Below are positions 25,172-30,913 of a stretch of 64,000 nt of DNA, in pieces. Position 1 is the stretch's first letter; each line of letters starts with the position of its first letter. The position numbers and the translations under genes are program-made. Where the stretch lies: NCBI RefSeq assembly GCF_900117445.1, contig NZ_FPEJ01000001.1, forward strand, positions 796,501 to 860,500. The letters run 5' to 3'. Below the pieces are notes generated by a model. That model was not told the DNA's origin and did no database searches. It saw nothing but the letters and a program-made list of their open reading frames with translations. The DNA is from Hyphomicrobium sp. NDB2Meth4. GTDB taxonomy: Bacteria > Pseudomonadota > Alphaproteobacteria > Rhizobiales > Hyphomicrobiaceae.

Positions 25172-25750
25172 ATGCGAAACATCTACGACTGGATGATGCG
25201 CGCCGCGTCCAGCAAGCGTGCGCCCTACGCGCTCGGAACCGTGTCGTTCATTGAAAGCTCGTTCTTCCCCATTCCGCCCGACGTGATGCTCATCCCCATG
25301 GTGCTCAGCAATCGTGAGAAAGCGTGGTGGTACGCCACCATCGCCACCGTCACCTCCGTTTTCGGCGGCTTGCTCGGTTACGCCATTGGCTACTTCGCCT
25401 ATGACGCCATCGGACTGCCGATCCTGAAGTTCTACGGCAAGGAGCACGCGCTCGACGGATTCATCCAGTTCGTGCACGAGTACGGGGTACCAGCGATCAT
25501 CATCAAGGGCGCGACGCCCATTCCGTTCAAGGTGGTGACCATCGCCGCCGGCGTCGCCAAGATGGACCTGCTCGCCTTCGTCGGCGCCTGCATCGTCGCC
25601 CGCGCCATGCGCTTCTTCCTCGTTGCCGGCCTCCTCTATTTCTTTGGCCAGCCGATCAAGGAGTTCATCGAGCGCCGCCTGACCCTGGTCACCACAGTTT
25701 TCGTAGTGGTCTTGGTGAGCGGCTTCGTCGCTGTTAAATACATGTTCTAG
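25172..25750 (+). CDS. YqaA-type DedA/VTT membrane protein
   Basis: A 192-aa membrane protein of the YqaA branch of the DedA/VTT superfamily. It has the re-entrant motif region FIESSFFPIPPDVMLIPMVL near the N-terminus and KGATPIPFKVVTIAAGVAKM in the second half, where prolines and a basic residue are conserved. Two or three further hydrophobic helices follow. DedA relatives flip undecaprenyl phosphate or other lipids; for YqaA this is unproven. A GAAAGAG ribosome site sits ahead of the ATG. Confidence 0.88.
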   Translation: MRNIYDWMMRAASSKRAPYALGTVSFIESSFFPIPPDVMLIPMVLSNREKAWWYATIATVTSVFGGLLGYAIGYFAYDAIGLPILKFYGKEHALDGFIQFVHEYGVPAIIIKGATPIPFKVVTIAAGVAKMDLLAFVGACIVARAMRFFLVAGLLYFFGQPIKEFIERRLTLVTTVFVVVLVSGFVAVKYMF

Positions 25751-25773
25751 CTCGGTGATCTAAGGCAGGGCTC

Positions 25774-26295
25774 ATGGCTTTCTCGGCGCAGGATCCGACA
25801 GTACACGCAGCCTACCGCACCGGCGGCTTCGCCCTGCTGTTCGCGGCCGCTGCCATCTTGCTTGCCCTCGGCTCCGAGCACATCGGCGGCCTTAAGCCTT
25901 GCGAGCTGTGCCTCGAGCAGCGCTATGCCTACTACGCCGGCGTACCTCTGCTCTTCTTCGGACTTGTTGCCCTCAGCGCTGGGCAGGCACGCGCTGCCGC
26001 CGCGCTGTTCATTCTGGTCGCTCTCGCATTCTTCGGTAACGCTGCGCTCGCCGTCTATCACGCGGGCGTCGAATGGGGCTTTTGGCAGGGCCCGGCCGCA
26101 TGCAGCGGCCCGCAATCGCTAACGACCAACGCCGGCAATCTTCTCGATGCTCTGAAGACGACGAACGTCGTGCGCTGCGATCAGGCTGCATGGCGCATGT
26201 TCGGACTGTCGTTCGCCGGATGGAACGTCATCGCATCGCTGATGATCGCGTTCCTCGGTTTGCGCGCCGCAAATGAAGCGCTGCACGCGCGCTGA
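25774..26295 (+). CDS. dsbB: Disulfide bond formation protein DsbB
   Basis: A 173-aa four-helix inner membrane protein that reoxidises DsbA using quinone. The first periplasmic redox pair is C-E-L-C in LKPCELCLEQRYAYY. The second pair is the separated cysteines in AACSGP and VVRCDQAAW. It is the last gene in the rph operon. The region after it holds no recognised gene for about 1 kb. Confidence 0.92.
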   Translation: MAFSAQDPTVHAAYRTGGFALLFAAAAILLALGSEHIGGLKPCELCLEQRYAYYAGVPLLFFGLVALSAGQARAAAALFILVALAFFGNAALAVYHAGVEWGFWQGPAACSGPQSLTTNAGNLLDALKTTNVVRCDQAAWRMFGLSFAGWNVIASLMIAFLGLRAANEALHAR

Positions 26296-27298
26296 TTCCG
26301 CTCGCGCGTGAACAGCGCGAAGTTATCCACAAATAACTGATGTTTTCCGCAGCAGATTGCGTTCAGCAACTGTCAAGCTAAATACCGTGGGTCCGTCACG
26401 GCAGCGCCATCCCGTGGTCAAAAAGTAACGGTCTATTCCTCCTCGTTCGCGGAACAACGCGGTCGAGTTCGAGTTGAACAGCCACAGTGAGTTTGCGTCG
26501 CGTTCGAGTGAGTGAAGAGCCCAGCAGTCAGTTGCGTTGCGTAGGTGTTGCGTCCGTTGCGTCTGAGTTGAGTGGCCTCGCGTCTCGAAAGTCGCCGTTG
26601 CGTCCGCGTCAGTCACATCGGGAACCCCGGCAGTCCCGCCAGTTGCGTAAGTTGCGTCAAAGTCTGCGTCTGTTGCGTCTCGCGTAAGTCCCCCGCCCGT
26701 CTTGGTATCGCGTTTGTAAGCGTTGCGTTCGTTGCGTCACGTGTTGCGTCCGTTTGCGTAAAGCCAACTTCCCCCAATAGACGCGTTCTCCCCCGAGCGC
26801 GTGTGCAATCGAGGCGAACCGCCCGGAGATGAATGGTTTCGCGTAGTTCCGGGCGGTTGCAGCCAGTCGAGTTCAAGAGCCCGCATAAGTGGCGTCAGTC
26901 GCGTAAAAGTCAGCAAGTCAGTGAGGTGTACCGTGGCGTCTCAGTATCAATCTCAGTCGCATTCGTGGCGTTCGCTTTCAGATGTTGTCGGTGAAGTCAT
27001 CGTCGCTATCGGCAGTCCGTCTCAATCGACGGACGTTCCCATAGCGTCGGCGTCGACAAGGTAGCCGCCGCGTATTCGTTACGGAGGGGAAAGAGGGACC
27101 TTCCAACGAGATGGCAAGCATATGGAGCGTCGGAGACTTCATGCCTCCACGATTCATCACATGACCTGGTTTCGCGTAGTGATGTCAGCACGCTCTGTGT
27201 GCTTGCCAACGATTTTCAGCCCCGCGCCCGGGCAATGAAAGCGGCGCGTAATGAGCAAGCGCCGGGACTTTGGCGGCGCAAGACAGGAGAAGCGTCAA
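26296..27298. other. 1-kb gap without a recognisable protein gene
   Basis: Between dsbB and a 70-aa gene. Open frames here read as low-complexity Arg/Ser/Val or Thr/Gln strings and look non-coding. It contains a small hairpin (AGTTAT...ATAACT) at 26321-26338, the TTGCGT-rich segment listed separately, a 14-bp direct repeat (TGGTTTCGCGTAGT at 26834-26847 and 27167-27180), and many GTCAGT/GAGTT-like words. The + strand is rich in G and T over CA-type words. No tRNA or known ncRNA motif was recognised. Confidence 0.6.
26493..26759 (+). repeat. TTGCGT hexamer array (13 same-strand copies)
   Basis: TTGCGT occurs at 26493, 26532, 26537, 26548, 26557, 26598, 26643, 26652, 26673, 26723, 26732, 26744 and 26754, always on the + strand; one more lies at 26357. 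About 0.07 copies would be expected by chance in this length. Within clusters the spacing is mostly 9-12 bp, close to one helical turn. Most copies are preceded by G and followed by C, T or A. It could be an array of protein binding sites or part of a repetitive RNA. Confidence 0.85.
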
Positions 27299-27511
27299 AT
27301 GAGTTTCAACCACATCAACCCGCTGCAGTGGCATCAGGCGCTCGGCGTTGCCCGCGCCTCCTGCGCTCGCATCTTCCGCGATGGCGGCGCACCGGCTGAT
27401 GCGCTGCGCGCCTTCGGCCTTGCCGCCGATCAAGCGACTGAGGATTGGAGCCGCACGGTTGAGGCGATAGCGGAATCCCTGTGTGCCGCTTCGATGAAGC
27501 GCGCCGCATAA
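27299..27511 (+). CDS. Hypothetical 70-aa protein
   Basis: Not recognised. A 70-aa soluble, mostly helical protein (MSFNHINPLQWHQALGVA...) with two cysteines and a C-terminal SMKRAA. Evidence that it is real: AGGAGA at 27286-27291 lies at correct spacing before ATG 27299, and a strong intrinsic terminator follows at 27589. An upstream in-frame ATG at 27251 lacks a ribosome binding site. It follows the repeat-rich gap, and may use a promoter inside it. Confidence 0.6.
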   Translation: MSFNHINPLQWHQALGVARASCARIFRDGGAPADALRAFGLAADQATEDWSRTVEAIAESLCAASMKRAA

Positions 27512-27588
27512 ACGGTCTAGCTCCGCGAATGTGGAGCGTCGAGCATCCGGCTCATCAGAATTTCTCGTCGTCCTTCCCCTGAACGACG

Positions 27589-27626
27589 AAGGCCTCGGCA
27601 TCGCATTGCCGAGGCCTTTCTTTTTT
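27589..27626 (+). terminator. Strong rho-independent terminator
   Basis: A perfect 12-bp stem (27589-27600 with 27607-27618), 6-nt loop, then a T-rich tail with six Ts at 27621-27626. It ends transcription of the 70-aa gene. The HNH gene converges from the other side. Confidence 0.9.
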
Positions 27627-30361: not shown

Positions 30362-30913
30362 ATGGAAACAAACTGGACGAAGCTATTGTCAAATAACGCG
30401 AATAAGCTGAGCGTGGTCAGGCTTCGCGCAGTCGCGTTCGCCTCGCGGAGCTCGACTGAGCTTCACCGCCTCGCGGTAGCTCATGCAACGCTGACAAAGA
30501 AGCACGCAAAAAAGCTCCGCCGAACCATGCTCCGCCGCCTCGCCGCCTATAAGAATTTTGCTGCCCTTGCGCTGTCGAGCTTCTCGACGGCAACGGCACT
30601 GCATGAGATTTCCGGGCGTACGCAGCGCGAGGCCGTCCGTCTGGTCGAGCCAGTCCGCGTCAGCGTCGAGGATCACTGGCGCCGTGCTGTCGGTGTAATC
30701 ACCGCAGCACTCGAGAGCTTCCAGCGCGTCAAGAGCCTGCACAAGTCGGCCGCGCGCCAATTGGATTCGGCTGACTATGCGCTGACGCAGCTTCTGCACG
30801 ACCTGCGCCCTGTTATGGGCTTGCCCGCCGATGTTTCAGGCCTGCGCGCCGTACTCGCCGAGGCCGAGCGCACCGCGCCAGAGCGTCGCCGTAAGGCTCT
30901 GGCCGCCGCCTGA
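30362..30913 (+). CDS. Hypothetical basic helical protein
   Basis: Not recognised. A 183-aa protein rich in Ala, Arg, Leu and Ser, predicted to be almost entirely helical with no signal peptide or membrane segment. The N-terminal half is strongly basic (KKHAKKLRRTMLRRLAAYK). A phasin-like or nucleoid-associated role would fit the composition, but nothing proves it. It stands alone between gluQ and a palindromic repeat. Confidence 0.6.
   Translation: METNWTKLLSNNANKLSVVRLRAVAFASRSSTELHRLAVAHATLTKKHAKKLRRTMLRRLAAYKNFAALALSSFSTATALHEISGRTQREAVRLVEPVRVSVEDHWRRAVGVITAALESFQRVKSLHKSAARQLDSADYALTQLLHDLRPVMGLPADVSGLRAVLAEAERTAPERRRKALAAA

Follow-up and report, generated by a model that had tools for sequence, protein, structure and literature searches.

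A one-strand GTNGCGT array between dsbB and orf70 of Hyphomicrobiaceae: a candidate mRNA leader with many sites for an RNA-binding factor

Results

The dsbB–orf70 gap and its features

The analysed stretch (the window; 64,000 nucleotides of Hyphomicrobium sp. NDB2Meth4) contains a gap of about one kilobase (26296–27298) that adjoins dsbB, assigned by a Pfam match, on one side and a 70-codon gene, here called orf70, on the other. The following features are located in the gap and at its downstream border:

26357–26457, plus strand: promoter-like block, conserved within the genus and ending in TTCGCGGAAC (26446–26455)
26493–26759, plus strand: dense TTGCGT array of 13 copies (word count)
26497–26971, plus strand: full stretch with 16 GTNGCGT words, all on the plus strand (word count)
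26572–26832, plus strand: remnant of ORF A, an 86-codon open piece with a weak partial domain match (11.3 bits)
26817–26858, plus strand: hairpin 1, 12-bp stem, loop containing GUUUCGCGU (covariation)
26933–27064, plus strand: ORF B, 43 codons, GTG start, conserved peptide of the W-R-x-L-x-[DE]-V-V type
27113–27207, plus strand: R1, long stem GGCAAGC...GCUUGCC with an inner hairpin, loop GGU-N3-GCGU
27299–27511, plus strand: orf70, 70-residue protein with three predicted helices, downstream end of the proposed unit

The initial annotation had described this kilobase as gene-free. This is wrong, as ORF B is conserved and, in 45 of 72 loci, the open frame of ORF A extends over the array sequence. 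A loose pattern recognises ORF B in 44 of the 72 loci, at least two of which (L097 and L214) are doubtful. Within the clade of the window, dN of ORF B is lower than dS in nine of ten pairs and equal to it in the tenth. Pfam, NCBIfam and PHROGs contain no match for ORF B, orf70 or the other ORFs of the putative leader. For the fold of orf70 there is no PDB match at E ≤ 0.001, and no relative of this protein was found in the viral contigs and plasmids searched. Elsewhere in the window, a 183-residue ORF (30362–30910) is likewise without a Pfam or NCBIfam match. Directly past dsbB, at 26323–26331, the DnaA-box-like TTATCCACA is present, as it is in several relatives. A replication origin, considered on account of this box, was rejected; no clear skew switch is seen within the window.

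The array holds 13 of the 36 TTGCGT copies of the window, all on the plus strand. Since the whole-window count is at chance level (shuffle mean 37.45), the hexamer is not abundant in the rest of the window. At the window rate, about 0.08 copies are expected on one strand of 267 bp, which confirms the single-orientation enrichment that had been reported with an expectation of ~0.07. The 9–12 bp steps reported along with it hold for six of the twelve intervals (11, 9, 9, 9, 12 and 10 bp) and fail for the other six (5, 21, 39, 41, 45 and 50 bp). A genome-wide count of TTGCGT clusters, proposed in the same annotation, places close triplets (gaps ≤14) in the array only (4.08-Mb genome; four forward and no reverse matches; one match for the reversed-pattern control). 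Close GTNGCGT triplets (gaps ≤25) are restricted to the array as well (four forward, no reverse; three for the control). The shorter word GCGT occurs 36 times on the plus strand of 26296–27298.

Conservation in Hyphomicrobiaceae

The gap DNA is found in all eight genomes of the genus (own genome included), with 80–89% identity in parts of 26320–26493, and orf70 is found in 91 of 103 genomes of the family. Sixty family loci were fetched, mostly from Hyphomicrobium, Filomicrobium and other Hyphomicrobiaceae. Together with the window, 47 of these have dsbB upstream (48 loci), and 13 have no dsbB in the stretch. The 48 gaps are 697–1669 nt long and contain TTGCGT 330 times in forward and 9 times in reverse orientation (window included), GCGT 1330 times versus 140 ACGC, and GTNGCGT 455 times forward and never in reverse. 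At least three TTGCGT are present in 43 of the 48 gaps; L064 has none. The array is thus conserved in the dsbB–orf70 gap of Hyphomicrobiaceae, in the comparison with relatives that the initial annotation had suggested. Many sites of the same orientation, kept in sister species, would fit its proposal of binding by one factor.

In 11 loci from other families of the order, GCGT occurs 150 times versus 30 in reverse and TTGCGT 30 times versus once. In other families orf70 is also present without the array, and in one relative (G036) the array is located downstream of orf70. In a search for arrays across the order (gaps ≤12), the matches listed include 25 in the family versus 4 for the reversed pattern, and 43 versus 58 in other families. 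Thus, in the other families the search does not exceed its control.

The clusters of L252 and of L247–L249 are leads only. In L252, a short GTNGCGT cluster (~1960–2080) precedes a gene that appears porin-like by eye, and may be due to chance; the locus belongs to the same genus. Short GTTGCGT clusters occur in L247, L248 and L249, all from one genus, with the cluster of L247 preceded by a stop codon and followed by a terminator-like hairpin, as in a 3'UTR. L245 (genome G264, another family) has 17 GCGT and no ACGC within 400 nt (~1840–2240 of the reverse complement); the stretch is flanked by a small ORF that has a W-K-x-L motif and by a terminator-like hairpin. The gene beside it, judged by eye, is similar to the window's HNH gene.

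The word is confined between the promoter-like block and orf70

A promoter anchor of the TTCGCGGAAC type could be placed in 22 of the 48 loci. In these, GCGT has a density of 4–16 per kb before the anchor, 10 per kb directly after it (up to 50 nt) and 24–62 per kb from 50 to 700 nt. Inside orf70 (48 loci) the density is at background level (3–8 per kb). Thus, the word fills the would-be transcribed leader, in transcript orientation. For the 26 loci without an anchor, the leader start was set ~170 nt past dsbB in the accessibility, Markov and retention analyses, and the slices from loci without dsbB may include other sequence.

A LexA-type box, GAACN7GAAC, has a fixed place after dsbB in 21 of the 48 loci and is also present in 6 of the 13 others. 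All 8 of 8 genomes have a box of this type in front of lexA (8 of 9 loci). For Caulobacter LexA, the motif is GTTCN7GTTC (PMC12700426). The likeness to the alphaproteobacterial SOS regulon thus consists of this box in 27 of 61 family loci; the difference is that the full box is missing in the window's own clade, the window keeping only the first GAAC half-site. As this clade is without the second half-site, SOS control is likely in only part of the family. No paper linking SOS genes to such arrays was found in the literature searched.

Two covarying hairpins carry the core in their loops

Of the 48 loci, 11 have no clear hairpin 1; four near-duplicates and eight with weaker fit or odd length were left out. 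In the remaining 25 aligned sequences, a selection that favours the structure, 11 of 14 pairs have changes on both sides and 93% of the cells are paired, which none of 500 shuffles reaches. GU-N3/4-GCGU is present in 34 of 37 rows (five read by eye), with GCGU in the loop by construction because the finder was anchored on GCGT.

R1 was aligned from 46 sequences. Five of the 60 fetched loci were unmatched owing to a variant stem, and eight near-duplicates as well as L084 and L109 were left out. The alignment has 195 two-sided cells and a covariation score of 0.593, neither of which is reached in 500 shuffles. Two-sided changes affect 18 of 24 pairs, a count reached by 25 of 500 shuffles. The loop contains GU-N3-GCGU in 44 of 46 rows, where extraction required a GCGT somewhere in the stretch. 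Both hairpin 1 and R1 display compensatory base changes, the criterion for a structured RNA, and are predicted to be such RNAs. Within the order, 18 of 297 genomes contain R1, and each of these has orf70 too; among 337 genomes of the class, R1 is found in the own genome only. A variant of R1 with the stem CCGGCGAGCG, outside the R1 alignment, is seen in L075, L086, L093, L095 and L102.

Rfam shows no match up to E = 5 over 25700–27600. Accessibility of GCGU is not raised (RNAplfold, 4 nt; 0.059 versus 0.058 over all orders of the same letters).

Spacing of the words and the possibility of DNA sites

The initial annotation preferred oriented sites on double-stranded DNA for a DNA-binding protein. 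Plasmid iterons and operator arrays are composed of direct repeats in one orientation, and the array likewise consists of one heptamer, directly repeated in a single orientation. TTGCGT has spacing peaks at 9–10 and 20–21. For this word alone, the autocorrelation power is similar at periods 10.5 (61), 5 (67) and 5.25 (64), the last of which is half a helical turn. For GCGT, on the other hand, there is little power at 10.5 (25) compared with 271 at period 5 and 250 at 5.25. The helical phasing proposed earlier may therefore exist but is not clearly supported, and the repeats are short and irregular when compared with the helical spacing of long direct repeats. In contrast to iteron or operator arrays, the setting is chromosomal, bounded by a promoter-like block and a gene start, and tied to covarying hairpins. 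Furthermore, the density of the word tracks the interval from promoter to orf70, and DNA sites would not need their core in the loops of two covarying hairpins. What speaks for RNA is that the motif sets in at the promoter-like block, has the direction of the downstream gene and shows its GCGU core in covarying loops. We regard DNA sites as unlikely, at roughly the level of an outside chance worth keeping in view.

Retention of GTNGCGT

GCGT is the most over-represented tetramer when compared with a second-order Markov model (1226 versus 754), and GCGC, CCGT, TCGT and GCGA are under-represented in the same model. Loci L049 and L050 were left out of these Markov counts and of the autocorrelation, motif-context and GT-spacer counts.

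In 13 pairs of at least 85% identity, 450 of 480 GCGT are retained versus 9870 of 13658 other tetramers. The corresponding numbers are 236 of 245 versus 4740 of 6101 for the eight of these pairs with a dsbB-bounded gap, and 559 of 644 versus 11326 of 18378 for all 18 pairs; the pairs share species, so that Fisher p-values are not independent, and in distant pairs MAFFT may align repeated words onto each other, a bias that the close-pair test limits. Around GCGT the substitution rate (13 pairs; 0.11 overall) is 0.04 and 0.05 at positions −3 and −2, 0.13 at −1 and 0.03–0.04 in the core. The slow positions are thus G, T, (free), G, C, G and T, and the retained unit is GTNGCGT.

In the window's clade (the window, L050, L051, L052 and L054 for this comparison), 262 of 356 GCGT are kept versus 1796 of 6059 other tetramers, and GCGT ranks first in retention among tetramers seen at least 40 times. 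It is second in the g10 and g21 groups, where GCAC (0.80 versus 0.79) and CCCC (0.75 versus 0.74), respectively, are kept slightly better. Three other tetramers match or beat it in the poorly aligned g25 group.

The words could also be a mutational by-product, caused by pentanucleotide slippage and conversion in a fast-evolving tract with no factor involved. Successive GCGT have spacing peaks at 5, 9–10, 15 and 20, and L049 and L050, with gaps that are otherwise near-identical, contain a (GAGTT)n run of very different length. This difference is a recent pentanucleotide expansion or loss. However, close pairs keep aligned GCGT above other tetramers, the footprint skips one base and GAGT is not consistently kept (8 of 65 in the window's clade; 118 of 255 versus 6600 of 18437 in g10). 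A purely mutational origin is thus improbable, and the retention at aligned sites contradicts the decayed repeat that had been listed as an option.

Overlap with ORF A

Where the array is covered by ORF A, a conserved basic domain (SPKxVLxxxFxxxRRAARxxKxxRMxxRLA type) forms the end of this frame. In 3015 array codons there are 101 and 148 stops in the other two plus frames and none in the ORF A frame, the latter owing to how the sample was built. A minus frame with 36 stops, open in 25 of 45 stretches, may be coding in antisense. The open frame and its conserved domain would agree with the motif being a mere codon signature of a low-complexity protein rich in S, V, R and A. This is very improbable, because GCGT occurs in all three codon phases (190/133/190) and exceeds synonymous shuffles, with 513 copies versus 301±10 (own codon usage) and 197±10 (usage of the window genes). 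For TTGCGT the numbers are 175 versus 79 (own codons) and 8.8 (window-gene codons). The three phases and the excess show that the word is imposed at the nucleic-acid level.

Furthermore, loss of the ORF A domain does not remove the motif. The frame has decayed in the clade of the window, but the motif is still there. The domain was not found in L049, L050, L051 and L054, and in L052 it is located within a 41-codon piece. This loss is judged by domain matches and not by stop counts, which alone do not separate L054 from the intact L055 (two stops each in the best frame). The dN/dS ratio of whole ORF A is 0.35–1.3, and higher in some domain-only counts, indicating weak constraint at the protein level. 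In several loci, e.g. L066, L079 and L092, ORF A continues in frame into ORF B.

Pairing of the leader with another RNA (small RNA or rRNA) through GUNGCGU would agree with the depletion of its own complement in the leaders (ACGC, 101 versus 166±11.5 in shuffles), but is very improbable, since a pairing word would not usually contain a free base, the own genome has no reverse-strand cluster, and pairing with a 16S segment would call for GCGC and GCGG, both of which are depleted. RNA polymerase pause sites have the consensus TGYG, and a pause array was dropped as an option since the footprint leaves the position in front of GCGT free (0.13).

Discussion

Most likely, with a probability of about 0.6 in our estimate from the sequence comparisons, the kilobase is an mRNA leader and forms a platform on which a sequence-specific RNA-binding factor finds many sites. 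The RNA sponge that the initial annotation listed as an alternative to DNA sites is its suggestion that fits best. The mRNA would start near 26440 and run as a long 5' leader through ORF B into orf70. Its many GU-N-GCGU words, together with the two hairpins with GU-N3/4-GCGU loops, are putative sites for one such factor. The leader may titrate this factor or assemble a ribonucleoprotein, in the way that CsrB acts on CsrA, and may in addition affect orf70 in cis. The number of words per leader (2–27 GTNGCGT and 15–53 GCGT) would suit titration or assembly. The factor is presumably a protein. ORF A is probably not the factor, because the array outlives it; orf70, ORF B or a protein encoded elsewhere may be. 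No candidate binding protein was found. Further points against the platform are the predicted accessibility of GCGU, which is no higher than for its shuffled letters, the occurrence of orf70 without the array, the position of the array behind orf70 in G036, the lack of TTGCGT in L064, the incomplete LexA box of the window, the TTGCGT power at 10.5 and the groups in which other tetramers are kept better than GCGT.

In principle, the leader may resemble CsrB or the TRAP-binding leader without their defining words. CsrB and RsmZ are protein-titrating RNAs with many GGA sites that are bound by CsrA or RsmA, some in hairpin loops and others in linkers. The leader shares with these RNAs a short word that recurs many times along one molecule, in part within hairpin loops. 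The retained word, however, is GUNGCGU and not GGA, and the array is part of a putative mRNA leader, which overlaps an open reading frame in relatives. The trp leader of Bacillus contains (G/U)AG repeats with a spacing of about 5 nt, which are bound by TRAP (mtrB gene). Here, too, short words are about 5 nt apart in a putative mRNA leader, and Hyphomicrobium sulfonivorans (L049) has the (GAGTT)n run. The core, on the other hand, is GCG instead of (G/U)AG and the next gene is not trp. TRAP itself was rejected, as the TrpBP family (PF02081) is present in none of eight genomes searched and GAGT is not consistently kept. The initial annotation had stated that no known element has this form; none was matched in Rfam, Pfam, NCBIfam or PHROGs, and no paper naming such an element was found in the literature searched.

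A bolder version of the binding platform is a family-wide, undescribed code for RNA recognition. In this version, a novel type of bacterial RNA-binding protein would read many GUNGCGU copies over a kilobase leader. The demand for these words would be so strong that it governs the codons of an overlapping gene in all three frames and outlasts the decay of that gene. We hold this version as a tentative possibility, with the odds somewhat against it.

If the reading as an RNA-binding platform is right, the leader could be used directly as bait to obtain a sequence-specific RNA-binding factor from Hyphomicrobiaceae and would represent a new RNA family with two covarying hairpins. It would also be a rare case of a nucleic-acid word that overrides coding in three frames, and it would account for a stretch that seems empty at first reading.
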